Shown piece after piece: positions 3,580 to 15,798 of a stretch of DNA of 20,157 nucleotides. A program made the position numbers and the translations under genes. Origin of the DNA: a virus; the IMG/VR virus record IMGVR_UViG_3300030106_002469, positions 284 to 20,440 of that record. One strand, given 5' to 3'. The first letter of the stretch is position 1. Every line of letters starts with the position of its first letter. The notes below the pieces were generated by a model, which saw only the letters and a program-made list of their open reading frames with translations, was not told the origin of the DNA and ran no database searches.

Positions 3580-5279
3580 TAAATTACTTCCTCTAATCTT
3601 TTTGATGTTTGAAACATTTCACGTGCGCCTTTTAAGCCTTGCGATTCTTCAGATACGTCACCTCCGGCTTCGAGGTTCTTCATCATGTTATACATGACTT
3701 CTGCGCCTTTGTCTACATCCCCATCACCTGCATTTCTAACAGCGTCAGCTGTAAATACAAACTCATTTTTAGACAATCTTGCAGGGACATCATCTGCCTT
3801 TTCCATACGTCCTATTGGCACAAAACCACCTTCAGCTCTTAAATCCATCTCTTGTCCACCCATATCTAATAGTGGCATAGTCTTTTTAGCTACGGGTTCT
3901 TTCATAGAACCACCTTCAGCCCTACTGTCTCTGGCTGCATCTTGTAAAGCATCATACTCTTCATCAGTAAGTTGATCTAGATTTTTACCAAATAACATTT
4001 GAGCTAAGTCATTTAATGAATCCATTATATCTGGTGCTGATGCTACTTTCATAATACCCTCACCATTTTTTAATCCGATTCTACCACCTTCAGCCATTCT
4101 AAATGCAGGAAATAAAACATCTCTAGGATTTGTATATGCTCTTGGATCTATTTGACCACCTACTGATCCCATACTTGCTAGTTGTTGTGTATCGTCTTCT
4201 TGATTTCCAAATATAAATGGTGCTAAAGATAAAAGACCCCCTCCAAATAATTTACCAGCTCCTGTTAATTTACCAGCTTGCATAAATGGAAATGCTTTGT
4301 TTAATCCGAAACCACCTGCTGCTAATAAACCTATCTTACCAATAGGACTTTTAACTATCTTCTTGACTGCTCTTTTAGCTTTCTTAACTAGTTTACCTAA
4401 AAAATATTGTTGTCTACCTGCAGCGTCCATGATGCCTCCACCTATCATACCACCATCTGCTACTTTGTAAAAATTCCTAACTTCTTGTAATGTAGCTGGA
4501 TCATTAGGATCATTGAATGGAGCAATATTCTCTAATATTTGTTCATCTGAAATATCCATTATATTTTTTAAATTTTTTTGAGGACCAGCTAACATTTGTT
4601 GTTGTTTTTTAGTTAATCCAGCTATAGCATTATTTAAAAATTCGTCGTCTTCCTGGTTTTGTGTATCGTCAATTATTTTTTTTTGTTCCGGTGTTAATAA
4701 ACTCATATCACTTTCAGATATTCGTTCTATCGTAGGTATGCTCATGTCACTTTCAGATATTGGTTCTATTGGTTTTTTCATATCTATAGTGGGTCTAAGA
4801 CCACTACCTCTTCCTGAGTCTACAGAAATATCAGAAATCTTTTTTGTTTTCATGTTTTCTAAAAAGTCTGCTAATGTTGGAGACTCTTTAAAAGTTTGAA
4901 AAGTATCTGGTGCTGACGTAACAAATCTAGAAGCTATACCTAACGCAGGGTTTATCAATCCTAATATAAAAGATAGTGGATTAAATCTAGAAGCTAAACT
5001 TCTTAGACCTTGAAACCTTTTAGGTTTTAAATTTTGAGCCATTACGTTTCTACCAAATTGAGAAAACTGACTTACTGCTCTTCTATCTGGACGTCTAGGA
5101 TCTGCGTCTCGTGTATCTATTCTACCAGTTGTCCCACTTGGTCCTTTAAATTGTTGAGTTATACCTCTTTCTCTATTGGAACTTCCACCAGTTCTTTCAA
5201 CTGATCCTTCTTTAGCTCGTCCTCCAACGCCGCCTATTCTATATAATTGTCTTGCTATTTGAGTTCTAGTTATGGCCAT
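3579..5279 (-). CDS. Virion structural protein with cationic helix and C-terminal ARLSxxEFV motif
   Basis: A 566-residue protein. Visible landmarks are LYRIGG at 12-17; a hydrophobic Pro/Leu/Ile stretch at 101-118; a duplicated ISESDMS (174-180 and 187-193); a strongly basic amphipathic segment at 296-316 running into a Gly-rich hydrophobic stretch at 317-336; three AEGG motifs (396, 454 and 482); and a C-terminal motif PARLSKNEFVFTADAVRNAG (499-518). The ARLSxxEFV block is, to my knowledge, a recurrent C-terminal signature in phage tail or internal proteins, without a defined role. The basic-plus-hydrophobic middle suggests membrane interaction during DNA entry, which is inference. The gene starts 9 bases after a 56-codon gene with only a weak ribosome site, and its stop overlaps the next start. 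Confidence 0.82.
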   Translation of the reverse strand: MAITRTQIARQLYRIGGVGGRAKEGSVERTGGSSNRERGITQQFKGPSGTTGRIDTRDADPRRPDRRAVSQFSQFGRNVMAQNLKPKRFQGLRSLASRFNPLSFILGLINPALGIASRFVTSAPDTFQTFKESPTLADFLENMKTKKISDISVDSGRGSGLRPTIDMKKPIEPISESDMSIPTIERISESDMSLLTPEQKKIIDDTQNQEDDEFLNNAIAGLTKKQQQMLAGPQKNLKNIMDISDEQILENIAPFNDPNDPATLQEVRNFYKVADGGMIGGGIMDAAGRQQYFLGKLVKKAKRAVKKIVKSPIGKIGLLAAGGFGLNKAFPFMQAGKLTGAGKLFGGGLLSLAPFIFGNQEDDTQQLASMGSVGGQIDPRAYTNPRDVLFPAFRMAEGGRIGLKNGEGIMKVASAPDIMDSLNDLAQMLFGKNLDQLTDEEYDALQDAARDSRAEGGSMKEPVAKKTMPLLDMGGQEMDLRAEGGFVPIGRMEKADDVPARLSKNEFVFTADAVRNAGDGDVDKGAEVMYNMMKNLEAGGDVSEESQGLKGAREMFQTSKRLEEVI

Positions 5280-5288
5280 CTTACTATT

Positions 5289-5459
5289 CTATTTTGTTTT
5301 ACTTAAAAAATCAAGGCTTGGCATTATCACAGTAACATCTCTTCTAATATCCTCAGGAGATATACCCTTTGCTTTCCACTCAGAATCATCTTTGTATTCT
5401 TCGCCTGTTTTCTTATTTGTTATTTTTTCTATTATTTTTTTTGGTTTTAGTTCTTTCAT
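5289..5459 (-). CDS. Small conserved-looking phage protein, 56 residues
   Basis: A short reading frame of 56 residues beginning MKELKPKKIIEKI and ending SLDFLSKTK. Its ATG overlaps the stop codon of the upstream gene by one base (TAATG) and its TAG lies 9 bases before the next gene, so it exactly fills the gap in the operon. It is very lysine-rich (14 of 56) with a central EEYKDDSEWKAKGI segment and a hydrophobic VTVIMPSLDF near the end. I have an impression of similar small proteins in marine phages at this place, but no function is known to me. The tight stop-start junctions are the main evidence that it is translated. Confidence 0.7.
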   Translation of the reverse strand: MKELKPKKIIEKITNKKTGEEYKDDSEWKAKGISPEDIRRDVTVIMPSLDFLSKTK

Positions 5460-5800
5460 TATGCTGTTACCTCTCTTGGCTGTATTTCTAATATAGAAGC
5501 TATGACGTGCAGCTCATTCGCGTCAGAGGCTTGTACCTTTAATATCTCACTTTCCTCCATTACAAGAGGGTTAGTTAAAAGTTCTGTTGTAGTAATTGTT
5601 GCTATAGTTTTTGTTTTAAATAAACTAAATATATTACCGCTAGCATCTACTAGAGTAACATCTATATTACAACCAGATCCTGCATCATTCGAAACTAATA
5701 GAGATTTTACTACAGATGTTTTTGCACTTGGCACAGTATACAAAGTGGTTAAATCTGTTGTGGTTAGATCTACTTTTTTATTTATAAAACTATTTGCCAT
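5459..5800 (-). CDS. Small beta-rich virion protein
   Basis: A 113-residue protein beginning MANSFINKKVDLTTTDLTTL. It has alternating short beta-strand-like segments (YTVPSAKTSVVKSLLVSND, IDVTLVDASGNIF, ILKVQASDANELHVIASILE) typical of a single beta-sandwich or barrel. This pattern, with a TTLYTVP start and a VSVLEI-like end, matches a family of small structural proteins I know from cyanophages and other marine phages, where it lies in the tail module. The function is not established; a tail or capsid decoration role is plausible. The start overlaps the stop of the 54-residue gene by one base, and the stop overlaps the next ATG by one base. Confidence 0.78.
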   Translation of the reverse strand: MANSFINKKVDLTTTDLTTLYTVPSAKTSVVKSLLVSNDAGSGCNIDVTLVDASGNIFSLFKTKTIATITTTELLTNPLVMEESEILKVQASDANELHVIASILEIQPREVTA

Positions 5801-5964
5801 TAATTTAAAAAGAAGTTTTGAGCTTCTACCTCGTCTTTTAATTCTTGTTGATATGTAGTATTTAATTTTACTATAATCCCATCTATATCTCTAGTTTGAG
5901 CCTCTGCAACTGTATAATCATACTCTTGTGCAGGTCTTGTTAATACTTGTACTATCTTAGCCAT
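5800..5964 (-). CDS. Small hypothetical phage protein, 54 residues
   Basis: A short frame encodes 54 residues starting MAKIVQVLTRPAQEYDYTVA and ending VEAQNFFLN. It starts inside the stop codon of the 736-residue gene (TAATG, one shared base) and its own stop again shares one base with the ATG of the 113-residue gene. Three consecutive genes are thus chained by identical TAATG junctions. The protein is acidic to neutral, with a probable helix over DIDGIIVKLNTTYQQELKDE. No function can be assigned. An in-frame start at such a junction, and no other gene in this stretch, make it a likely real gene. Confidence 0.7.
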   Translation of the reverse strand: MAKIVQVLTRPAQEYDYTVAEAQTRDIDGIIVKLNTTYQQELKDEVEAQNFFLN

Positions 5965-8174
5965 TATCGTCTACCATCTGGTTGTGTATCTAATCTAAAA
6001 GTTCCTAGTTTCCAACTTTGACTCGCAGCTGTATTTTCTATTTTTAATGCAATCGATCTTGCTCTTGCTCGCGTATCTACTTTTAAAGTAGAGGATGTTA
6101 TGTCAAAAGGACCTAGTGATGAGCTTGCAGCTGTTTCATTAGGGAAATTTCTTAATTGTAAAGTTACTCTTGTTGCTCCTGTCTGTGATATAAAGTCAGG
6201 TATAAATCTTCGTATTTTCATTAAAAATTCACCATCTCCTCTAAATGTTGCAATACCTGTTTGTTGACCTTGTGATGTTCTTTGTGCTGTGATGTCAAAA
6301 TCTCCGGATACTATATTCGCTGTTATAGCTGTGATTGTACCATTTTTATTTTGATCTGTCCCTGTTTCATGTTCGTAGTATGCTGTTCTACCCTCAGTAT
6401 TTCCAACCACATCAAAAGATGTATCTGTTGATGCATCGTATTCTAAAGCGTGTGGTTTAGTAAATACCGCTGAGTCTTGCCACATAGTTCTAGATAAACT
6501 ACCTACAGTCCATACTGGTCTTTGTGGTGATGAGTCAAAATAATTGTATGAAACCATTCTGTTTACCACAGAGGATGTAGACTCTGGATAAAACCACATG
6601 ACCTCACCAAATAAATTATTTAACCCTGCTGACACCATTTGGTTACCAGACTCAATATTTATATTGTCAAAAACAAAATCTTCTACCAAACATGGTAATG
6701 ATTCTAATTTACCAGCATATCTAAAGAAGCCATTTTCTGACATCCAGTATGCAGCACCATCTACTTCAACACATGCATTCTGTCCTACAAGTCCACAGTT
6801 AGTTCCAACTTGTGAAAAGGCAAATGTAAACGGTTGACCAACAAAACGTTGTGTAAATAAAGCTGTGTCGGTCCAAACATAAATTGCATCACGACCTCTA
6901 ATCGCTCCTCTGATCTGTGATCCATCGGCCAGTCTTTGTGTACCAGCTGTATTGGTTGCTGTTGGTGTGTAGCTATTAATATTTTCTTGGTCCGAGAACC
7001 TAATAAACATATCATCTTGTGTTGCTGGATTTCCAATAGTTGTCTCTGTTCCAAAAAATACTAAGTGACGATCCGGTGTTGATACGACCATATGTCTTGA
7101 TGCAGTTGGTGCTCCTGTTATAATCGTGCACCTTGTTTCTGTTGCGTTTGATAAACTAGAGTCCCATTCAAATACAGAGCTATCATGAATTAAACAAATT
7201 GCTTTGTCACCAAAATTATCTATTGACCACATACCGGGTTCTAATACTAAGTCACCTGATGCTGCTTCACCCCAAGCAACAAAGTCCGTGGTATTAGTTA
7301 CAGTTGCGCCATTACTGTGTGCAGCTCTTGTAGTTCCTCTAACAGCCCTTGTAATACCTGTCAATGTAGTGCCTCCTGTAACCCCCGTGTAAGATATTTC
7401 TTCGGTCCCTACTTTTATAAAATTAGTTCCTGTGCTAGGAAATTGTGTAGCATCAGCTAAAACAATAGATGTTCCAGACCCACCAGTACCAAATGCATCG
7501 TTTAATAATGCACCATTTAAAGTTGTAGTGACTGCATTTGAAGCTTCTCCACCCCAAGATCCTAAACCCCAACCAAAACCTTTTTCCTGAACAGCAGATC
7601 CAACAGGAAAATAATGTTGCACTCTAATACCACCAGATGTTGTTGCACCAGATCCTGATTCATTAGAAGGCATCGTAATTGTTAATGTTGATGTTGTAGG
7701 AACAGTTGTAACCATAAATTTTTTATTATCAAAATCAGAGGCGCTAAAATTAGAATTAGTTATTGCAGTAAAATTATCTAACAAAATAATATCTTGCGGA
7801 TTTATACCATGAGATCCACTAAAAGTTATTGTAACAGTTGGTGATCCATTAGTCGTGCTGAATGCACTTGTAAGTGTTGTTGTAGATTTAATAGGGTGTA
7901 TGTCATAAAATACACCACCAGAAAAAGCATATAAAATTCTATTAGTGCCAATAATAGCGTATCTTCTACCTAAACTATTAACAAAATGATGTAAACCACG
8001 TCCTGCTCCTGTCAATTCATTCTCATTGACGTTACCTAATTGATTCCATCCACCTATTTTTTCAGGTGTGCCATACCTAAATCTTACATTGTCACAATCT
8101 ACCCATTGACCCTCGGCTCCTGTGGGTGTGATTTGTTTGTTGATTCCTGGCTGAAAACCTATTTTTTGTAGCAT
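5964..8174 (-). CDS. Large tail protein, candidate tail hub/nozzle (P22 gp10-like)
   Basis: The largest complete gene, 736 residues. The N-terminus (MLQKIGFQPGINKQITPTGA, then QWVDCDNVRFRYGTPEKIGG) and the C-terminus (LGTFRLDTQPDGRR) match conserved ends I associate with a family of large marine phage structural proteins. Comparison with the P22 gp10-type tail hub is a fold-level guess. Residues about 94-185 look like a beta-rich Ser/Thr insertion. A GWGLGSWGG segment lies at 200-208. A separate module at 226-294 (IVLADATQFPSTG, EEISYTG, TLTGITRAVRGTTRAAHSNG) is a widespread exchangeable phage module. The middle region (320-560) has regularly spaced aromatic strands compatible with a beta-propeller. 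The start is 43 bases downstream of the 163-residue gene, with only a weak GTGGGCG as ribosome site. Confidence 0.82.
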   Translation of the reverse strand: MLQKIGFQPGINKQITPTGAEGQWVDCDNVRFRYGTPEKIGGWNQLGNVNENELTGAGRGLHHFVNSLGRRYAIIGTNRILYAFSGGVFYDIHPIKSTTTLTSAFSTTNGSPTVTITFSGSHGINPQDIILLDNFTAITNSNFSASDFDNKKFMVTTVPTTSTLTITMPSNESGSGATTSGGIRVQHYFPVGSAVQEKGFGWGLGSWGGEASNAVTTTLNGALLNDAFGTGGSGTSIVLADATQFPSTGTNFIKVGTEEISYTGVTGGTTLTGITRAVRGTTRAAHSNGATVTNTTDFVAWGEAASGDLVLEPGMWSIDNFGDKAICLIHDSSVFEWDSSLSNATETRCTIITGAPTASRHMVVSTPDRHLVFFGTETTIGNPATQDDMFIRFSDQENINSYTPTATNTAGTQRLADGSQIRGAIRGRDAIYVWTDTALFTQRFVGQPFTFAFSQVGTNCGLVGQNACVEVDGAAYWMSENGFFRYAGKLESLPCLVEDFVFDNINIESGNQMVSAGLNNLFGEVMWFYPESTSSVVNRMVSYNYFDSSPQRPVWTVGSLSRTMWQDSAVFTKPHALEYDASTDTSFDVVGNTEGRTAYYEHETGTDQNKNGTITAITANIVSGDFDITAQRTSQGQQTGIATFRGDGEFLMKIRRFIPDFISQTGATRVTLQLRNFPNETAASSSLGPFDITSSTLKVDTRARARSIALKIENTAASQSWKLGTFRLDTQPDGRR

Positions 8175-8217: not shown

Positions 8218-8709
8218 TTATTGTTGAATCCAAACTAAATTATCAGAATCCCAAGCAAATGTATTTCTAGGGGAGTCCCAATCAAGTGCTTTCCATTCTA
8301 AATCGTTTTCATTCCAAAAAATATTATAGTTTACGTCTGCACCATTATCTTTGTATGTAGTTATTGTAGGATAAGGGACTGGAGCTTTCCAAGTCACACC
8401 ATCATCTTGTTTTATCCATGATGCGAAAGGTTGTCTTTCAATAAATTTATCTTCCGCAAAATCATATGTTCCACCTATCATTGCCATTCTCCCTCTAAAA
8501 GCATGACCTGCTGAGGTTTGTTTCCAAGTCCCACCTTGGAAGAAATTTTTACACCAATTTTCTCCGTCAATGTGCATGTCATTATCACCGAGAAGTCCAT
8601 CAGATGTTGGTGTTTTGTTACCAACTTTTATTACATTCATAACAGTCCATCTTTCTGTGCTTGAATCAAATGGATCGGGTCGTTTTTCTAATTTTGCAAA
8701 AGTAGCCAT
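8218..8709 (-). CDS. Trp-rich fibre-associated virion protein
   Basis: A 163-residue protein with 10 tryptophans (21, 52, 62, 98, 107, 132, 139, 144, 153, 160). The order of blocks is MATFAKLE, a VMNVIKVGNK strand, an ENWCKNFFQGGTWKQTS block (50-66), a TYDFAEDKFIERQPFASW block (81-98), a WKAPVPYPT block, and a C-terminal run of WD/WN/WIQQ strands. This order matches a family common in cyanophages and other marine phages near tail-fibre genes, whose role is unknown to me. The start has an AGGA seven bases upstream and lies two bases after the stop of the last oxygenase gene, so normal ribosome-site use resumes here. Because it immediately follows the halogenase cassette and is so Trp-rich, it is one candidate substrate, but that is speculation. 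Confidence 0.8.
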   Translation of the reverse strand: MATFAKLEKRPDPFDSSTERWTVMNVIKVGNKTPTSDGLLGDNDMHIDGENWCKNFFQGGTWKQTSAGHAFRGRMAMIGGTYDFAEDKFIERQPFASWIKQDDGVTWKAPVPYPTITTYKDNGADVNYNIFWNENDLEWKALDWDSPRNTFAWDSDNLVWIQQ

Positions 8710-8711
8710 AA

Positions 8712-9389
8712 CTATATCCTATATTTCTTATATTTTATTAAAGGCGTATTGTCTATAATTAATTCTTGTATAAAAAAGACTAAATTTAACCTTTCTTTAC
8801 TATCCTCAACCACCATATTATCAAAGGCATGCCAAATATTCCCTCCATATACTATTAAATTATTATAAACATTTTTTACCGTTTGAATTTTTATAAATTT
8901 ACTATTGTGGTTTTTATAAATTTTTTCATATATTTTTTTATTAAATATATTTTTTTTGTATAAATTTCTTTTTTGATTTACAGCATCATTATTTTTTATA
9001 GGCATTACTGGTTTATAAAAACTAGTCCCACTATCTAATCTAGATTTTTTATTTAAATAAACTAAACCTGCTAAAGCACAGTCATCTTTGTGAATCCAAC
9101 CTTTATTTCTTACGTCTAAAATATTTTTTGAATATGGTTTCATTTTATGAAAACAAACATGAGCCCCTCTCCACTGAATATCATGATGTCTAAAATCATA
9201 ATACAATGATAATACAGAAACTATAAATTTATCAAATATTTTTTTGTCTATTTCATGTAAACTTTTTGTTCTAATGTTTGGAAAGTTACCGGTTTTAGAT
9301 TTATAGTATTTTAAAGTATTTGCAAATTTAACTATTTCATCCGGATTATCAAAACAATCTGTAACTGTTGTAACAGGAAAATAAATCAT
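8712..9389 (-). CDS. DUF6445-like Fe(II)/2-oxoglutarate oxygenase family protein
   Basis: A 225-residue protein, last gene of the tailoring cassette. It has an HxD iron-binding pair in GWIHKDDCALAGLVYLN (H100, D102), a distal histidine in GGNIWHAFDN (H187) and an arginine in ERLNLVFFIQ (R200) that would bind the 2-oxoglutarate carboxylate. This order and the surrounding words fit DUF6445, a cupin-type family related to Fe(II)/2OG dioxygenases. Between the two halves is a lysine-rich insertion (132-165). The expected chemistry is oxidation, most simply hydroxylation, of an unknown substrate in the infected cell. The start lies in an ATGA overlap with the upstream oxygenase and no Shine-Dalgarno sequence is visible. 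The very Lys/Asn/Ile-rich composition matches the cassette and not the flanking virion genes. Confidence 0.8.
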   Translation of the reverse strand: MIYFPVTTVTDCFDNPDEIVKFANTLKYYKSKTGNFPNIRTKSLHEIDKKIFDKFIVSVLSLYYDFRHHDIQWRGAHVCFHKMKPYSKNILDVRNKGWIHKDDCALAGLVYLNKKSRLDSGTSFYKPVMPIKNNDAVNQKRNLYKKNIFNKKIYEKIYKNHNSKFIKIQTVKNVYNNLIVYGGNIWHAFDNMVVEDSKERLNLVFFIQELIIDNTPLIKYKKYRI

Positions 9390-9994
9390 TGTGATTTAAA
9401 TTCTTTCGGTAGTCCTAAAAAAGGTCTGGAGTCAAATAAATTATTAGAACCTTTTTTATTATAGTGTAAAAATACTTGTGAACATAAATTACCTTCAAAC
9501 TCTTCTCTCCAATGTTCTAACTCACATCCGGAGTAAACTAAAAGATCACCTTGTTCTAATAATATTTCTTTACCCGCTCTATTTTTACCACCTGTTGGAT
9601 CAAGATATATTGGCCAAATGTCTCCTCCTAAATTTAAGGTACCTGATATTTGACAACTTGGTCTATCGATATGTCTTTCTAATATATCACCCTTTTTATA
9701 TATTCTAAAATAAGTATAAGTTTCATCTAATTTTATTTTTATTTTATTTTCTATTTCCTCTTTAATAAATACAAGTAATGTTTCCATGGTTATATCTGAA
9801 TAATGAGAATAAGTATTAGGAACTTGATCATCGTTGTAAGTTCCAAAATACTCTGTATATGGTGAAAGATATCGTTTTTCAAACATTTTATCCGCGACTT
9901 TCTTTTTTAAAAAAGAATAGTTAAATAAAAAATTAGCAAATTTTTTATCAATAATATTTTTTATTATTTGATATTTATTTTTTTTAAAGCTCAT
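9386..9994 (-). CDS. Fe(II)/2-oxoglutarate oxygenase-like protein (atypical 2OG site)
   Basis: A 202-residue protein. The core reads YTYFRIYKKGDILERHIDRP (93-112), giving an HxD pair H108/D110. Then come a GTLNLGGDIWPIYLDPTGG strand pair, EQGDLLVYSGCELEHWREEF with distal histidine H161, and GNLCSQVFLHYN. This is the double-stranded beta-helix layout of prolyl-4-hydroxylase-like oxygenases, with all three iron ligands present. The usual arginine or lysine about ten residues after the distal histidine is not evident: that place has CSQVFLHY. The 2OG carboxylate may be held by another residue, or the co-substrate may differ. The N-terminal 40 residues are very Lys/Phe-rich. The start lies 11 bases inside the end of the halogenase gene, with only a weak AAGA upstream. 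The substrate is unknown. Confidence 0.8.
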   Translation of the reverse strand: MSFKKNKYQIIKNIIDKKFANFLFNYSFLKKKVADKMFEKRYLSPYTEYFGTYNDDQVPNTYSHYSDITMETLLVFIKEEIENKIKIKLDETYTYFRIYKKGDILERHIDRPSCQISGTLNLGGDIWPIYLDPTGGKNRAGKEILLEQGDLLVYSGCELEHWREEFEGNLCSQVFLHYNKKGSNNLFDSRPFLGLPKEFKSQ

Positions 9995-11396
9995 TTCTTA
10001 TATTAGTTAGATATTGTTTGTGTGTTATAATATTATTAGCTTGTATGTTAAAATCACTTATATAATTTTTAACATCATCATTTAATAATTCATATTGTTT
10101 TTTAATTTTTTGTTTGTTAATTAAATTTAAACCTTGCATAATGTGTATATAATTTTTGTCCCAAAATAATTGATATTTACAACCATTATTAAAATCTTCT
10201 TGTATTGGTAATCTGTTTTTAAATAAATCTAATTTATATTTTAATGTGTCAGGTATAACTTGTGTCTTCCAAAACTCTTCTTTTCTTTTTGTTATATAAT
10301 GTAAACAAATAAAATCTCTGATATTAAGCATAATTTTTTCTACTAAATTATTTACATGATTAATAATTTTGTCATCATAATTAATTAAATAATGAGATAA
10401 TAAATAAGATTGTTGGATTGAAGTCCCTATTGATGTCGCCTCTAAAGGTTCTACAAAATTTGCACTTAAACCCACAGCAAAACAATTTTTAATCCACACT
10501 TTATCTAAATACCCAGACTCAAAGTTAATCTGTTTTCTTACATCAATTTTGTGTTTTAAATATTTTTCTACTTCTTTTTTAGCTTGGTCTGAATTAATTA
10601 AATCACTATCAAATATATAGCCATTACCGTGTCTACCCCAAACAGGAATATTAAATAACCAACCAGATTTCATGGCTTTGGCAGTAGTGTAAATATTGTA
10701 ATTATTTGTATCTTTAGTTTGAAAAACTATAGCTGATTTAACTTTTAAATATTTATTAAGTTTTACCCATCTATGTTTAAATTTAGAAATTAATATTCTT
10801 CTAAAACCAGTGCAATCAATGTAAAAATCTGATTTATATTTAACTGTGCCTTTTATGTAATTAATTCCATTTTTATTAATTTTAACTTCTTTTATTTTAT
10901 CGTTTATAATTTTAACATTTCTTTCTTTACATTTTTTTATTAAATATTCATTTAATTTATATGTATCAAAATGAAACTGATTTGTTGGTCTTGGTTCATT
11001 AGCAACTACTTTATTTTTTAAAAATAAAGGAAATACAAAATCATTAGCTTTTTTATTGTTAGCTATCTTTTTTAAATAAAATATATTTTCTTGACCCAGT
11101 TTATTAATCCCACCATAAACACTGTGTAAAAAATTATTATCAGACCAGTCTTTAAACATTATACCAGATTTTAATGTGCAATTACATTCTCTGATTAATT
11201 CAAAATAATCTAAATCGCACCAACCCATAAAATCAATCCAATGTTCAGTGCTACCCTCTCCTACACCTATGATGCCTATTTCATCAGATTTTATAATTTG
11301 TATATTAATATGATTTCTAAATTTTTTTTCTAATATTAAAGCAGAAATTAATCCAGCAGTACCACCACCTACTATAGTTATATTTTTTACTTTCAT
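9984..11396 (-). CDS. Flavin-dependent halogenase (tryptophan halogenase family)
   Basis: A 470-residue FADH2-dependent halogenase-family protein; such enzymes make HOCl or HOBr from halide and O2 and pass it to an active-site lysine to halogenate an aromatic substrate. Visible elements are the FAD dinucleotide fold ITIVGGGTAGLISALIL (G10, G12, G15); GVGEGSTEHWIDFMGW (45-59), the family's GE-ST/ATP region; K76 in CTLKSGIMF, aligning with the catalytic lysine of PrnA/RebH; CTGFRR (195-200); GWLFNIPVWGRHGNGY (245-260), a variant of the WxWxIP signature; and GLSANFVEPLEATSI (309-323), where E319 matches the conserved glutamate and T321-S322 the halide-binding turn. It is shorter than typical bacterial tryptophan halogenases (about 500-540). 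A marine viral member, VirX1 from a cyanophage, is reported to iodinate diverse substrates. A flavin reductase partner is not in the window and may come from the host. ATGA overlap start; no ribosome site seen. Confidence 0.9.
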   Translation of the reverse strand: MKVKNITIVGGGTAGLISALILEKKFRNHINIQIIKSDEIGIIGVGEGSTEHWIDFMGWCDLDYFELIRECNCTLKSGIMFKDWSDNNFLHSVYGGINKLGQENIFYLKKIANNKKANDFVFPLFLKNKVVANEPRPTNQFHFDTYKLNEYLIKKCKERNVKIINDKIKEVKINKNGINYIKGTVKYKSDFYIDCTGFRRILISKFKHRWVKLNKYLKVKSAIVFQTKDTNNYNIYTTAKAMKSGWLFNIPVWGRHGNGYIFDSDLINSDQAKKEVEKYLKHKIDVRKQINFESGYLDKVWIKNCFAVGLSANFVEPLEATSIGTSIQQSYLLSHYLINYDDKIINHVNNLVEKIMLNIRDFICLHYITKRKEEFWKTQVIPDTLKYKLDLFKNRLPIQEDFNNGCKYQLFWDKNYIHIMQGLNLINKQKIKKQYELLNDDVKNYISDFNIQANNIITHKQYLTNIRNEL

Positions 11397-12046
11397 ATAT
11401 TTTTTGGATAAGCCCTACAATTCCAGTGAATAAATCTAAAAGGTTCTACTCCCTCATCAACTGTATATAAATGAGGCATGTAAGATGGAAAAAACATCAT
11501 TCTACCAGATTTTACAACGTATTCAATTTGCGGAATCCCATAAACTAATTCTTTCGTTGGTTTTATAGGTAAAGAATTCATATTAGCTCCAGGCTTTGGG
11601 TCTTGAAAAACAGGCTTAGAAGTTTTATCACTTGCCTTTAAAAAATAAAAACCAGACATGTGTCCATTCCAATGTGTGTGTAATGTGTGGTGTCCTCCTC
11701 CAGATTTAGCAAATTCTTGAACCCAAATTTCATCTAAATTAACTTTATAATTAGTTAAATCAAAACCCATCTCATCTAATAAGTTATGACAAGTTGCAAC
11801 AATATAGTTGTTAAACTTTTCTAATTTAGGATCATTAGCTATTAAACCAGAGTGATAAACTAAACCGTGATCATTTTTTGTATTATAAAATTTATTCTTA
11901 TCTTTTAATTTTTGTTTAAAATTTTTTTTAGCTTGATTAATATGAGGATCACATATCTTATTTATTTCTTTTAATTTATCTGGAAAATCACATATCCAAA
12001 GTGGTGTTGAAAATATATCTTCTCTGTTTAAAATTTTAGGAAACAT
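11393..12046 (-). CDS. Putative Fe(II)/2-oxoglutarate oxygenase, 2OG-FeII_Oxy_5 (TIGR02466)-like
   Basis: A 217-residue protein. The block HHTLHTHWNGHMSGFYFLKA (119-138) corresponds to the PHTHPNxxxSGVYYL signature of the TIGR02466/2OG-FeII_Oxy_5 family. It is followed by a strand with PVFQDPKPGAN, KSGRMMFFPSYMPHLYTV (179-196) with distal histidine H192, and EPFRFIHWN (201-209) with R204 as probable 2OG-binding arginine. The first iron motif reads H123-T-H125, so the usual aspartate of HxD is replaced by histidine if the alignment is right. Function in this family is mostly uncharacterised; hydroxylation of a protein or small molecule is expected. Its start shares one base with the stop of the upstream oxygenase, and its stop overlaps the halogenase start by four bases, which argues for coupled production with the halogenase. 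Confidence 0.82.
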   Translation of the reverse strand: MFPKILNREDIFSTPLWICDFPDKLKEINKICDPHINQAKKNFKQKLKDKNKFYNTKNDHGLVYHSGLIANDPKLEKFNNYIVATCHNLLDEMGFDLTNYKVNLDEIWVQEFAKSGGGHHTLHTHWNGHMSGFYFLKASDKTSKPVFQDPKPGANMNSLPIKPTKELVYGIPQIEYVVKSGRMMFFPSYMPHLYTVDEGVEPFRFIHWNCRAYPKNI

Positions 12047-12642
12047 TATCTAAAGTCTTTACCACCGAACCAAATGACTAAACTATATCTTGTTCCTTTT
12101 AAAACAGGTTTTACTCTATGCCACATAAAAGAAGGGAAAAAACAAATAGAACCTTTATTACCAAATTCTTCATTTGTTACTATGTCTGGTGTAGCATCTG
12201 GCGAACTTTCTATGCAAAATTCTAAGTCTCCACCGGTATAGTCTTTTCTGTCTGATAAGCAAAGTGTCATTGATAATTTCCTATTTCTATCCCTATCATA
12301 CTTTTTTAAATCTTCTTTGTCAAATCTATCTGTGTGCCAACCATAAAATTCATTAGAATTGTATATTGTAAACTGACAAGGTTCTGCATTATCTATTTCA
12401 TAATTCCAACCTGCATTTTTATTAGCGAGTTTTAAATAAGGTTGTATTTCTCTATAAATCCAAGTTTCATCAAGCCATATAATATTTGAGTTTCTTACTG
12501 AGCTTAATGTGGGGTTATCCGTTTTTAATGATTTTGTTCGACCTACTCTTTTTCTTTTTGATTTTGCAAATTTAATTATATCATCACAAAATTTTAAAGA
12601 TAAAGATTTATTCCAATACCAGAAAGGATGTTGCACACGCAT
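12046..12642 (-). CDS. PKHD/PiuC-like Fe(II)/2-oxoglutarate oxygenase
   Basis: A 198-residue protein and the first gene of the cassette. It shows the full 2OG oxygenase set: H103 and D105 in NEFYGWHTDRF, the RKLSMTLCLSDRKDYTGGDLEF strands (121-142), distal histidine H175 in CFFPSFMWHRVKPV, and R185 in GTRYSLVIWFGG. The order and wording resemble PiuC-type PKHD hydroxylases and phage-encoded relatives in cyanophages. The reaction would be O2- and 2OG-dependent oxidation of an unknown substrate, possibly a virion protein or the halogenated product made by the downstream enzyme. The gene starts 9 bases after the glycine-rich adhesin gene. The DNA before the ATG is TAATAATTTTTT, with no Shine-Dalgarno sequence. 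All catalytic residues are present, so activity is expected. Confidence 0.87.
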   Translation of the reverse strand: MRVQHPFWYWNKSLSLKFCDDIIKFAKSKRKRVGRTKSLKTDNPTLSSVRNSNIIWLDETWIYREIQPYLKLANKNAGWNYEIDNAEPCQFTIYNSNEFYGWHTDRFDKEDLKKYDRDRNRKLSMTLCLSDRKDYTGGDLEFCIESSPDATPDIVTNEEFGNKGSICFFPSFMWHRVKPVLKGTRYSLVIWFGGKDFR

Positions 12643-12651
12643 AAAAAATTA

Positions 12652-13584
12652 TTAAAATGACGCGCTCCCACTTACTGTAAATGTTAAAAGTGTACAACAA
12701 CCAGTGGTTGTTATAGTGTTGTCTCCAGGTGTAATAGACATACCTGCTGGTTTGCAGGCTGTTGGAAATCTTAAAATAACTACTCCAGTAGCTCCTGCTG
12801 GAGCTCCGTTTCCTCCTCCACCACCGGCTTGATTAGCAGTAGGAAGATCTGAACCATTTCCTCCATCTCCTCCGTCACCTCTACCCCCTGTGCCGGCACC
12901 GCCTGATGGGTGTGCACTTGCTCCACCACCACAGCCATAATTTACACTTGAACCTGTTATTGAAATTTGTTTTCCGTTTCCACCATTTGCAGATGTAGCC
13001 GCTGCACACGCTCCACCTCCGCCTCCTCCGACAAAACATGGAGATTGAGATGGTGCACCATTATTACCAAAACTTCCTCCGCTACCGCCTGCTTGAACAG
13101 GAAAGGCATGATTACAACCAGCACCGCCACCTGAACCACAAGAAGATGGTGCACCCGGATTTCTACGACCGCCACCACCGCCGCCTCCTCCCATTGGGAT
13201 AGCGACTGGTTTACAATTAAACATAGAACTAGTTCCACCAGTGCTTCCTGTGCCATCAAAACTTCCTGCTTTTGCACCACCTGCAGCTATTGTTACAGCT
13301 ATTGGTCCACAATCTGTATTTAAAGTTATTGCTGAACATGGAGTTGAAAAAGATGTTCTCACGCCTCCAGCGCCTCCACCTCCCGGTCCGTGTGCGTGCG
13401 AGCCGCCACCACCGCCTCCGGCTATTAGATAATCGAAAGCAATGCAAATTGGTCCACCAGCACCACCTGAACCAAAACCTAATATTTGATAACCAAAAGA
13501 TTTTCTTTTTGATGATTGTGAATTATTTGATGATTTACCAGTTCCACCAAGTTTTAATAAATCGTTTAATTTATCATCTCTCAT
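12652..13584 (-). CDS. Glycine-rich, cysteine-rich tail adhesin-like protein
   Basis: A 310-residue protein dominated by polyglycine runs (55-61, 68-74, 132-139, 186-191, 254-260) between short beta strands. The words DYLIAGGGGGG at the start of the glycine domain and TGVVILRFP near its end (266-274) are the typical boundaries of phage glycine-rich domains found in tail tips and receptor-binding proteins. Such domains can form polyglycine-II lattices, as in the Salmonella phage S16 adhesin. The first 35 residues are polar (KLNDLLKLGGTGKSSNNSQ) and could attach to the preceding fibre. There are 12 cysteines, an unusually high number for an intracellularly assembled fibre. The gene lies 11 bases after the fibre gene, with a weak TAGG as ribosome site, and directly before the oxygenase/halogenase cassette. 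A host-recognition role is inferred. Confidence 0.8.
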   Translation of the reverse strand: MRDDKLNDLLKLGGTGKSSNNSQSSKRKSFGYQILGFGSGGAGGPICIAFDYLIAGGGGGGSHAHGPGGGGAGGVRTSFSTPCSAITLNTDCGPIAVTIAAGGAKAGSFDGTGSTGGTSSMFNCKPVAIPMGGGGGGGGRRNPGAPSSCGSGGGAGCNHAFPVQAGGSGGSFGNNGAPSQSPCFVGGGGGGACAAATSANGGNGKQISITGSSVNYGCGGGASAHPSGGAGTGGRGDGGDGGNGSDLPTANQAGGGGGNGAPAGATGVVILRFPTACKPAGMSITPGDNTITTTGCCTLLTFTVSGSASF

Positions 13585-13595
13585 TTTTAAACCTA

Positions 13596-14966
13596 TTACG
13601 CATCGTTAGCAGCGTCTGTAGTAAAGAATAATTTAATTCCAAGTAATCTTGCATCAGCGTCTAGGGAGTCGTCTGATACATCTCTAGTTACTTGAAAGAA
13701 AACATATTCATCTGTACTAGGTGAACCTGCGATAGTAACTGCCCCACTTTCTGCTGTAACATCTAAATCATTTGATGTGCCGCTATGTGCTTTTGCTGTA
13801 GGTGCAACCGCTGTTCCAAAAGCAGTATTTAAATCACCACTATCTGCTAAAGCAACACCTGCTAAATCCCAAGACACAGTTCCTGTATCTGTTGAAGTGG
13901 CTGTGAAGAATGCTTGAAAAGTTACTGTGCCCTCATTCCAAGATTTAGGGAAAGCAACTGCAAATTGTGCACTCTCATCAGAGCTTTTGTCAAAATCTAA
14001 AACTTTTAATTCTGGTCCGTTTCCTAATTCTACTTGTGCAGCCTCTGCACCATTTGTAGTATTTGGATACATAGCCACTGCTGGAATCCATATAGTTTCC
14101 TTTCCAGCAACTTTTACTGCAGCTCCACCAGCTTGAACAACACCATTTCCATTAGGTGCAAGATTAATATTTCCATCTGCTCCATCTGTTATTGTAATTG
14201 TTCCAGAGTTAGTTCCTGAATTAGTGTCTAATATTAAATTGTGAGCACCACTAGATGTAATTGTTGCATCTCCTGAACCTGTACCAACTACGGTTTCTCC
14301 AGTTCCTTTTGGAGCTATGTTAATGTTTACGTTAGAGTCACTGCTCCCTGTTGCTGAAATAGTTGGAGCGCTTCCGTTAGCTGCGTTTGCTATCGTTAAC
14401 TCGTTAGTTGCTGAACTTGTAGCTGTTAATTTAAATAACTCATTACCATTAGTATCTAAAATAGATGTACCAATTTTTGGTGAAGTTAAAGTTTTATTTG
14501 TTAAAGTCTGTGTTCCAGTAAGTGTTACGTCCCCTGCACCAAAACCTAGGTCTATGATGTCTGGATTCACACCATCGTTTGCAGAAGCAAATACAATTTT
14601 AGTTGTTGCAGGTGCTACCGCTACACTATCACCCGATCCTGAAACATATTTAAATGTTACATTTTGTGATCCACTTGTAGAATTTTTTAAGAAGTAAAAA
14701 GTTTGAACATCAATTGGTATGGTAACGTTTCTTCCAGCACTTAATGATCCTGTAAATTCAATCATTCTGTGTGCAAGAGTTGCTCCTGTTCCACCATCAG
14801 TTACTGAAAGATCTGTATCTCCTGAATCAGAGACAGCCTGTTGTGTAAAACCACCAGATATCTGTTCTACTATCTGTAAATTGGTATTAGTCTTCGTCCC
14901 CCATGTACCGGCATTTTCACCAGTTGCCTGAAGTTCTATACCCAAAGGGCTGAATGTTGATGCCAT
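13596..14966 (-). CDS. Tail fibre protein
   Basis: A 456-residue fibre. The N-terminus (LGIELQATGENAGTWGTKTN, 8-27) is a conserved start of many phage fibre-type proteins and probably the virion attachment part. GTQTLTNKTLTSPKI (151-165) is the classic short tail-fibre repeat word. A beta-helix-like shaft follows, with two related units NINIAPKGTGETVVG (213-228) and NINLAPNGNGVVQAG (266-280). From about 290 a globular C-terminal domain begins (TIWIPAVAMYPNTTNGAE), ending in LGIKLFFTTDAANDA, and is a likely receptor-binding or trimerisation part. A strong AGGAG site lies upstream of the ATG. The gene sits between the repeat protein and the glycine-rich adhesin, so the three probably build the distal tail. 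No cysteines and no enzymatic motif are seen. Confidence 0.87.
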   Translation of the reverse strand: MASTFSPLGIELQATGENAGTWGTKTNTNLQIVEQISGGFTQQAVSDSGDTDLSVTDGGTGATLAHRMIEFTGSLSAGRNVTIPIDVQTFYFLKNSTSGSQNVTFKYVSGSGDSVAVAPATTKIVFASANDGVNPDIIDLGFGAGDVTLTGTQTLTNKTLTSPKIGTSILDTNGNELFKLTATSSATNELTIANAANGSAPTISATGSSDSNVNINIAPKGTGETVVGTGSGDATITSSGAHNLILDTNSGTNSGTITITDGADGNINLAPNGNGVVQAGGAAVKVAGKETIWIPAVAMYPNTTNGAEAAQVELGNGPELKVLDFDKSSDESAQFAVAFPKSWNEGTVTFQAFFTATSTDTGTVSWDLAGVALADSGDLNTAFGTAVAPTAKAHSGTSNDLDVTAESGAVTIAGSPSTDEYVFFQVTRDVSDDSLDADARLLGIKLFFTTDAANDA

Positions 14967-14976
14967 AAATTATCTC

Positions 14977-15798
14977 CTATGCGACGTCACTATATGTTAT
15001 ATTTGATCCCGTTGCAACATCAGAATATGAAATATTTGATCCCGTTGCAGCATTAGAATATGAAATATTTGATCCTGTGTCAACTTCTGAATACGCTTGT
15101 ATTCCAAACCCTGTTGAAGTTCCAAACTCAGCTACAGAGGCAGTTGCAGATTGACCTGTTAATCCCATAACATCGGCAGGTGTTATTGATCCTACACTAA
15201 ATGTTGCGGAAACTCCTGTTAACCCCATAACATCGGCAGGTGTTATTGATCCCACATTAAATGTTGCAGAAACTCCTGTTACATCTACAATTGGATTTGA
15301 TGAAATATTTATTTCTCCTGTGGAAGATGTTGCTGAAACTCCCGTTAATCCCATCACATCGGCAGGTGATATAGAACCAACGTTAGATGTTACCGCTTGA
15401 CCCGTTAGTCCCATTACATCGGCAGGAGAAATTGATCCAACGTTTGATGTTGTAGAAACTCCTGTAATAGAAAAAGATGCATCTACAGTTATTGTGGGTG
15501 AGCCAACACCTCCAGTTGCGGCTTGACCTGTTAATCCCATAACATCCGCAGGATTTAAAACAAATTGTCCCCAGCCTTGTTCTTGACCCCAAGCACCCTC
15601 ACCAAAATTAGATCCAATACTAACTTTAGATGTTATCGCATCAGGAGCTGTTAATGAAACTATCTCATCACCTACATCGCCCCAAGTTGATGCAGCATCA
15701 TTATAGGGATCTGCACCCCAACCTGTTTTTAAAGTTACGGCTTCATTCCAATTAGCCTGTCCCCAGGTTAACCGGCCCCATCCTGAAGTCACCGACAT
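14977..15798 (-). CDS. Trp-rich repeat-containing virion protein
   Basis: A 273-residue protein in three parts. Residues 1-80 carry seven tryptophans, most in Gly-Trp-Gly settings (SGWGRLTWGQANWNE, KTGWGAD, GAWGQEQGWGQF). This N-terminal style is common in marine phage structural proteins. Residues 83-226 are seven units of about 20 residues built on xxxxTGxxATxxVGSI; five of them begin with PADVMGLTG. The final 33 residues are three 11-residue copies of TGSNISYSxxA ending exactly at the stop. The repeats look like stacked beta strands of a fibre shaft or stalk. A strong AGGAGG site precedes the ATG. I place it in the fibre/baseplate region by context; the exact role is unknown. Confidence 0.82.
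   Translation of the reverse strand: MSVTSGWGRLTWGQANWNEAVTLKTGWGADPYNDAASTWGDVGDEIVSLTAPDAITSKVSIGSNFGEGAWGQEQGWGQFVLNPADVMGLTGQAATGGVGSPTITVDASFSITGVSTTSNVGSISPADVMGLTGQAVTSNVGSISPADVMGLTGVSATSSTGEINISSNPIVDVTGVSATFNVGSITPADVMGLTGVSATFSVGSITPADVMGLTGQSATASVAEFGTSTGFGIQAYSEVDTGSNISYSNAATGSNISYSDVATGSNITYSDVA
14980..15078 (-). repeat. Three tandem 33-base repeats encoding TGSNISYS units
   Basis: Three in-frame 33-base copies encode TGSNISYSNAA, TGSNISYSDVA and TGSNITYSDVA, the very end of the repeat protein. The stop follows directly. The last two copies differ by one residue, so the array is recent or homogenised. Confidence 0.85.
15121..15552 (-). repeat. Seven degenerate ~60-base repeats encoding TGxxATxxVGSI units
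   Basis: The coding DNA for residues 83-226 of the repeat protein consists of seven units of about 60 bases. PADVMGLTG begins units 1, 3, 4, 6 and 7 (residues 83, 125, 145, 187, 207). Units 2 and 5 keep the ITGVSTTSNVGSI / VTGVSATFNVGSI half but have a different first half. Start spacing is therefore 42, 20, 42, 20, suggesting a higher-order duplication of a two- or three-unit block. Confidence 0.85.

Follow-up and report, generated by a model that had tools for sequence, protein, structure and literature searches.

A viral flavin-dependent halogenase gene among 2OG-Fe(II) oxygenase genes beside tail genes, with a possible role in tail protein modification

Several described variant-A flavin-dependent halogenases (FDHs) can be set beside the viral gene examined here. 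The tryptophan 5-halogenases PyrH and AbeH (PDB 2weu/2wet and 8fov) share with its product the fold, the GxGxxG motif and the catalytic lysine and glutamate; identity is 26%, however, and the viral protein is without the Trp1, Trp2 and Trp4 motifs, has FxxPxxAxS in place of FxxPxxSxG, and is encoded in a phage tail-gene context. MibH and ChlH (PDB 5uao), which act on tryptophan in peptides, come from RiPP clusters of Actinobacteria and are 23% identical. BrvH (PDB 6frl), a bacterial gene from metagenome mining (25% identity), has an open substrate site, whereas that of RebH is covered (PMC5945002). VirX1 of cyanophage Syn10/syn9 (PDB 6qgm), a useful biocatalyst, is likewise a phage-encoded variant-A FDH, but it is longer (531 aa versus 470 aa), reads ESTG rather than EATS, and belongs to a separate clade. 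The "tryptophan halogenases" (phrog_2928) of P-SSM2 (PSSM2_217) and S-H38 fall in the same clade as the present protein, with 40-41% identity and the EATS and STEH signature, although both are T4-like cyanophages and their gene surroundings differ. Halogenases of phages are widespread in the ocean, with 20 of 153 cyanophages carrying one (PMC10452541); no native substrate of any phage halogenase was reported in the literature examined. Pelagiphages of the HTVC023P type are of the same phage group and carry the same oxygenase families in the same genomic slot, but PMC9599517, in which a halogenase goes unmentioned, describes these slot genes as ferrochelatase and oxygenase auxiliary metabolic genes (AMGs) and does not interpret them as a set for tail-linked modification.

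The window analyzed is a stretch of 20,157 nucleotides from a marine phage (positions 284 to 20,440 of IMG/VR record IMGVR_UViG_3300030106_002469), nearly all of that 20,440-base record, and a megablast of it against phage records gave no match. A preliminary description, made from the sequence, had placed a flavin halogenase gene at 9984-11396. The open reading frame is indeed complete on the minus strand, and the plus strand across this interval is full of stops. The gene run proceeds from tail-fibre-like (phrog_31104) and Gly-rich genes through oxygenases and the halogenase to a virion structural gene, as listed below.

5964..8174, minus strand: virion structural protein, phrog_3287; borders the slot on the downstream side
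8218..8709, minus strand: Trp-rich protein (6.1% W), phrog_7759; downstream end of the cassette, possible substrate
8712..9389, minus strand: DUF6445 / phrog_1644 ("minor coat protein"); downstream of the halogenase gene, 2OG protein-hydroxylase fold in the model
9386..9994, minus strand: 2OG-Fe(II)-oxygenase-like protein, phrog_2954 ("ferrochelatase"); downstream, overlapping the halogenase gene by 11 bp
9984..11396, minus strand: flavin-dependent halogenase, variant A, PF04820; 470 aa
11393..12046, minus strand: 2OG-Fe(II) oxygenase, TIGR02466 / PF13759 type; upstream, 4 bp overlap with the halogenase gene
12046..12642, minus strand: 2OG-Fe(II) oxygenase, PKHD / prolyl-hydroxylase type, PF13640; upstream, HxD...H...R invariant
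12652..13584, minus strand: Gly-rich protein (28% Gly), PF21722, tail adhesin-like; candidate substrate
13596..14966, minus strand: phrog_31104-type, tail-fibre-like protein; upstream border of the variable slot
14977..15798, minus strand: tail-region protein with repeats and a Trp/Gly-rich N-terminus (2.6% W); candidate substrate

The product of 9984-11396 is a viral variant-A FDH by family, residues and fold. The PF04820 (Trp_halogenase) profile matches residues 5-429 of the 470-aa protein (E=1.4e-83; 281.8 bits, cut-off 21), and phrog_2928, "tryptophan halogenase", matches it at 1e-98. The FAD motif GGGTAG occupies residues 10-15, K76 lies inside CTLKSG, and WLFNIP and EATS stand at 246-251 and 319-322, as first reported. 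In the alignment with AbeH and PyrH, K76 occupies the column of the catalytic Lys, and E319 that of the Glu in EPLEST. An AlphaFold2 model built from a 33-sequence input (pLDDT 92.6) was compared with known structures by VIA-align, and the superposition proposed in the preliminary description bears its reading out to this extent: the whole model superposes on tryptophan halogenases, with AbeH/PyrH at Z 44.7 (2.2-2.4 A over 461 residues), PrnA at 42.7 and RebH at 41.3. BrvH reached Z 42.7, the lanthipeptide halogenase MibH 40.6, and VirX1 37.4, the lowest score among the 48 best-ranked flavin-halogenase entries. The predicted placement of K76 and E319 relative to the flavin rests on this superposition together with the alignment.

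A scan of viral contigs yielded 43 loci with relatives, and a tree of 125 halogenases was constructed, in which viral halogenases form several separate groups. The window protein belongs to a virus-only clade (SH-aLRT 100) of 33 viral sequences plus one sequence, L057, from a contig binned as a Verrucomicrobia MAG (n=34). VirX1, identified as the syn9 gene at 5001-6593 of locus L047, lies outside this clade and is not a near relative. GxGxxG is kept in all 34 members, and K76, E319, W246, F314 and P317 are identical in all of them; the viral flavin halogenase with catalytic Lys and Glu named in the preliminary description is thus upheld by PF04820, alignment, fold and invariance. Between the window gene and two IMG/VR relatives (L001 and L002) there are 9 and 14 synonymous differences and no non-synonymous ones. 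Several close halogenase pairs have dN/dS of about 0.05 (0.11-0.23 in the remaining pairs); this low value indicates purifying selection, with the gene maintained under strong constraint on the protein, and together with the residues invariant in 34/34 it means that the resemblance to halogenases is not due to chance. A bacterial donor of the cassette was sought, and the best bacterial halogenases had, apart from L057 (47%), at most 34% identity and were without the oxygenase set. The L057 contig (TMED56 bin), which is probably a phage contig inside a MAG bin, has a layout like that of viral locus L036.

Members of the clade depart from the motifs of characterized enzymes. The published criterion for active FDHs is FxxPxxSxG, with the G at times swapped for a charged residue, and WxWxIP is usual in variant-A FDHs but not universal, since Bmp5 is without it (PMC8407142). 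FxxPxxSxG is absent from the window halogenase, which has FxxPxxAxS; this lowers the claim of activity of a known type and leaves family and fold unaffected. In the clade alignment position 320 is Ala in 34/34 and position 322 is Ser (29) or Ala (5), positions 48-53 are mostly GSTEHW, and of the tryptophans of WxWxIP the first is present in 34/34 and the second in 16/34, with Phe in the other 18. GSTEHW and the A-x-S/A that replaces S-x-G mark the virus-only clade, and the odd motifs are a clade-wide property, none of them peculiar to the window protein. The divergent signature noted earlier therefore holds for the clade as a whole and not as a special trait of this protein. The short length noted with it is mild, as 470 aa falls in the range of 460-506 aa of most clade members, against a median of 511 aa for the nearest bacterial relatives.

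The same changes bear on whether the enzyme halogenates at all. A related-fold flavin monooxygenase, resembling QhpG in hydroxylating protein tryptophan, would fit an altered halide region that had lost halide binding: S-x-G of FxxPxxSxG is A-x-S or A-x-A throughout the clade, WxFxIP occurs in 18/34 where WxWxIP is thought to prevent monooxygenation (PMC5945002), and there are weak matches to LodB and to QhpG, which modifies protein tryptophan (PMC7876137). However, the Lys and Glu of halogenation are invariant in 34/34, and the structural matches are variant-A halogenases at Z 37-45, compared with 28.9 for CndH, the next fold type. Monooxygenation is accordingly considered improbable. Still less likely is the reading put forward in the preliminary description, of an iodinase like VirX1 whose halide preference is unusual and whose substrate is bulky. 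Superfamily and viral origin are shared with VirX1, and the layout of the VirX1 locus is similar, but VirX1 sits in another clade and at the bottom of the 48 structural matches, and the halide is not predicted by motif differences. The W-to-F change occurs in half of the clade, and as the motif changes are shared clade-wide no argument about the halide follows from them; no evidence for iodide was found for the window halogenase.

A substrate other than tryptophan, which had also been suggested, is better supported. The Trp1, Trp2 and Trp4 motifs by which free tryptophan is bound (PMC8269204), as published for groups A and B of the PrnA/RebH/PyrH enzymes, are absent from 34/34 clade members; the Trp1 position reads GSTEHW, the Trp2 position reads HSVYG, and neither the Trp4-A nor the Trp4-B pattern occurs in any member (0/34). 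Their clade-wide absence suggests that a non-tryptophan substrate is likely. Such a substrate could be a small aromatic host metabolite (indole, phenol or other), in which case the gene would be an AMG whose product alters signalling or toxicity during infection. Small molecules are the substrates of most characterized FDHs, VirX1 accepts many small aromatics (PMC8407142), and phage prnA has been treated as an AMG or speculated to give protection from antibiotics (PMC2984593, PMC10452541). Nevertheless, the halogenase lies among overlapping genes within a tail structural module, no small-molecule biosynthesis gene was recognized near it, and the missing free-Trp motifs also count against this role, which is regarded as rather unlikely.

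The gene neighbourhood, overlooked in the preliminary description, is the most informative part of the locus. The product of 11393..12046 matches PF13759 (E=3.7e-11) and phrog_81, has a conserved His-rich motif, and scores 57.2 bits against TIGR02466, slightly below the cut-off of 62.5. PDB matches of the product of 12046..12642 are the PKHD-type hydroxylases PiuC and Sbal_3634. In the phrog_2954 protein H107xD109...H160 is invariant, a weak PDB match to a TET-like dioxygenase was obtained (E=0.054), and a Pfam profile search gave no match to a ferrochelatase profile. These proteins thus look like 2OG-Fe(II) oxygenases, to judge by motif and match. The family has matches in 149 phage records and bears the ferrochelatase label in several phages; if it is an oxygenase, the account of a ferrochelatase AMG may rest on a wrong annotation. 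The DUF6445 protein, with invariant H100xD102...H187...R200, was modelled because a PDB profile search with it gave nothing. The model (pLDDT 87) matched OGFOD1 (Z 13.4), the P. putida prolyl hydroxylase P4H (12.8), PHD2 (12.8) and a viral collagen prolyl hydroxylase (12.1), all of which act on proteins. DUF6445 / phrog_1644 is therefore predicted, from the model, to be an enzyme of the 2OG protein-hydroxylase fold rather than a coat protein, and both names, ferrochelatase and minor coat protein, mislead.

Overall, the Fe-binding HxD...H is invariant in three of the four neighbour families, and the TIGR02466-type family has the His-rich motif and the Pfam 2OG match. The 2OG fold is assigned by model for DUF6445, by Pfam for two others, and by motif and the weak PDB match for phrog_2954. 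Profile-profile comparison among the oxygenase families, made with shallow alignments, was not significant, so the families are linked by fold and motif and not by sequence. A defence-system reading of the neighbourhood was discarded, its sole match being a generic 2OG model. The Gly-rich protein of 12652..13584 has unusually many Cys (3.9%) and no Trp, and the protein of 14977..15798 has repeats of the PADVMGLTG type and no PHROG match.

In order to examine the slot in related phages, the virion structural gene (phrog_3287) was used as bait, and 80 related contigs were fetched and scored with the cassette profiles. Complete slots (n=54) had a median length of 5.1 kb; one to five 2OG oxygenases were present in 51 of the 54, and a halogenase in seven, each with at least two oxygenases. 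Further occupants include sulfotransferases, a carbamoyltransferase, methyltransferases, JmjC, cupin, tail-collar and Gly-rich proteins, and this mixture indicates that tail parts and modifying enzymes are exchanged at the site. The phrog_7759 protein is common in the slot with or without a halogenase. Since oxygenases occupy the slot regardless of the halogenase, their pairing could be mere co-location. Differences in Trp, Tyr and His content of candidate substrates between halogenase-positive (n=7) and halogenase-negative slots were small, and no candidate was enriched in Trp beyond noise. The closest cultured phages, the SAR11 phages HTVC027P and HTVC023P, both have oxygenases in the slot. 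The pelagiphage HTVC033P, which is covered by a paper on the HMO-2011-type group (PMC9038755) and placed in another phage group than the window, carries two 2OG genes together with a phrog_2954-type gene, at a distance of a few genes from its tail fibre.

Among halogenase loci with at least 6 kb of flank, 22 of 30 have oxygenases, and L028, of the L025-L028 type missed by the oxygenase models used, has two that are Pfam-confirmed; by eye, a sulfotransferase-like gene also lies beside them and the halogenase. In L023, L025-L028 and L033 the halogenase occupies the same slot on the strand opposite to the structural genes. There are exceptions to this layout: none of the searched oxygenase families was found near the halogenase in L018/L019, where the halogenases lie among Pam3-like phage genes, or in S-H38, and the 6 kb examined around the halogenases of P-SSM2 and S-H38 contain no annotated tail genes.

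The sulfotransferase, carbamoyltransferase and methyltransferase genes in the slot of relatives are typical of glycan decoration, and the first two could equally indicate a glycan target. The set might thus decorate the host receptor or envelope, for example in superinfection exclusion, and not the virion; yet the cassette genes lie among tail structural genes, and FDH chemistry requires an aromatic ring, not a sugar. This possibility is given little weight, about the same as monooxygenation.

The halogenase, identified by family, residues and fold, is under purifying selection and overlaps its neighbours in a slot that lies beside tail genes and holds other decorating enzymes. An FDH needs an aromatic ring as its target, and enzymes of this type are known to halogenate tryptophan residues within peptides or proteins (PMC12518702). 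These points, with the gene context and the absence of free-Trp motifs, favour the reading that the halogenase and oxygenases modify a tail protein of the phage itself. This reading is tentative and by no means certain, with catalysis, halide, target and effect all predicted; it includes that the gene encodes a functional variant-A FDH of the virus-only clade. The enzyme would use O2, chloride or bromide from seawater, and FADH2 that a flavin reductase of the host probably supplies. Hypohalous acid formed at the flavin would pass through the tunnel to K76, and E319 would activate or orient attack on the aromatic ring, this being the known FDH mechanism. The substrate would most likely be an aromatic side chain of a late phage protein from the same operon and not free tryptophan, with the tail-fibre/Gly-rich protein or the Trp-rich phrog_7759 protein as candidates. 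The four Fe/2OG-type oxygenases would hydroxylate the same target, and the modification may alter the receptor-binding surface or the stability of the tail. If so, virion proteins would carry a modification of a new kind, one that might bear on host recognition, and the clade would be a source of protein-acting halogenases. A literature search found no report of tail-linked phage halogenases, which is weak evidence of absence.

A related layout is present at the VirX1 locus of Syn10, where two tail-fibre-assembly proteins are followed by two halogenases, VirX1 included, and then by about eight oxygenase-type genes, JmjC and DUF6445 among them. Like the window, this locus combines tail-fibre genes and halogenase with an array of 2OG-type oxygenases. 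VirX1 belongs to a clade other than that of the window protein, so the layout arose, or was retained, in no fewer than two lineages of viral halogenases and is thus shared by separate viral clades. More doubtful than the tail-modification reading of the window is its extension to marine phages at large, in which pelagiphage-like podoviruses and cyanomyoviruses would carry exchangeable cassettes of halogenase, Fe-2OG hydroxylases and transferases that decorate their own tail fibres, halogenated virion amino acids would tune host adsorption, and this would be the native job of VirX1 too. In three further viral loci (L010, L014 and L022), divergent halogenase paralogs, three to five per locus, lie within about 15 kb and are interspersed with 2OG oxygenases.
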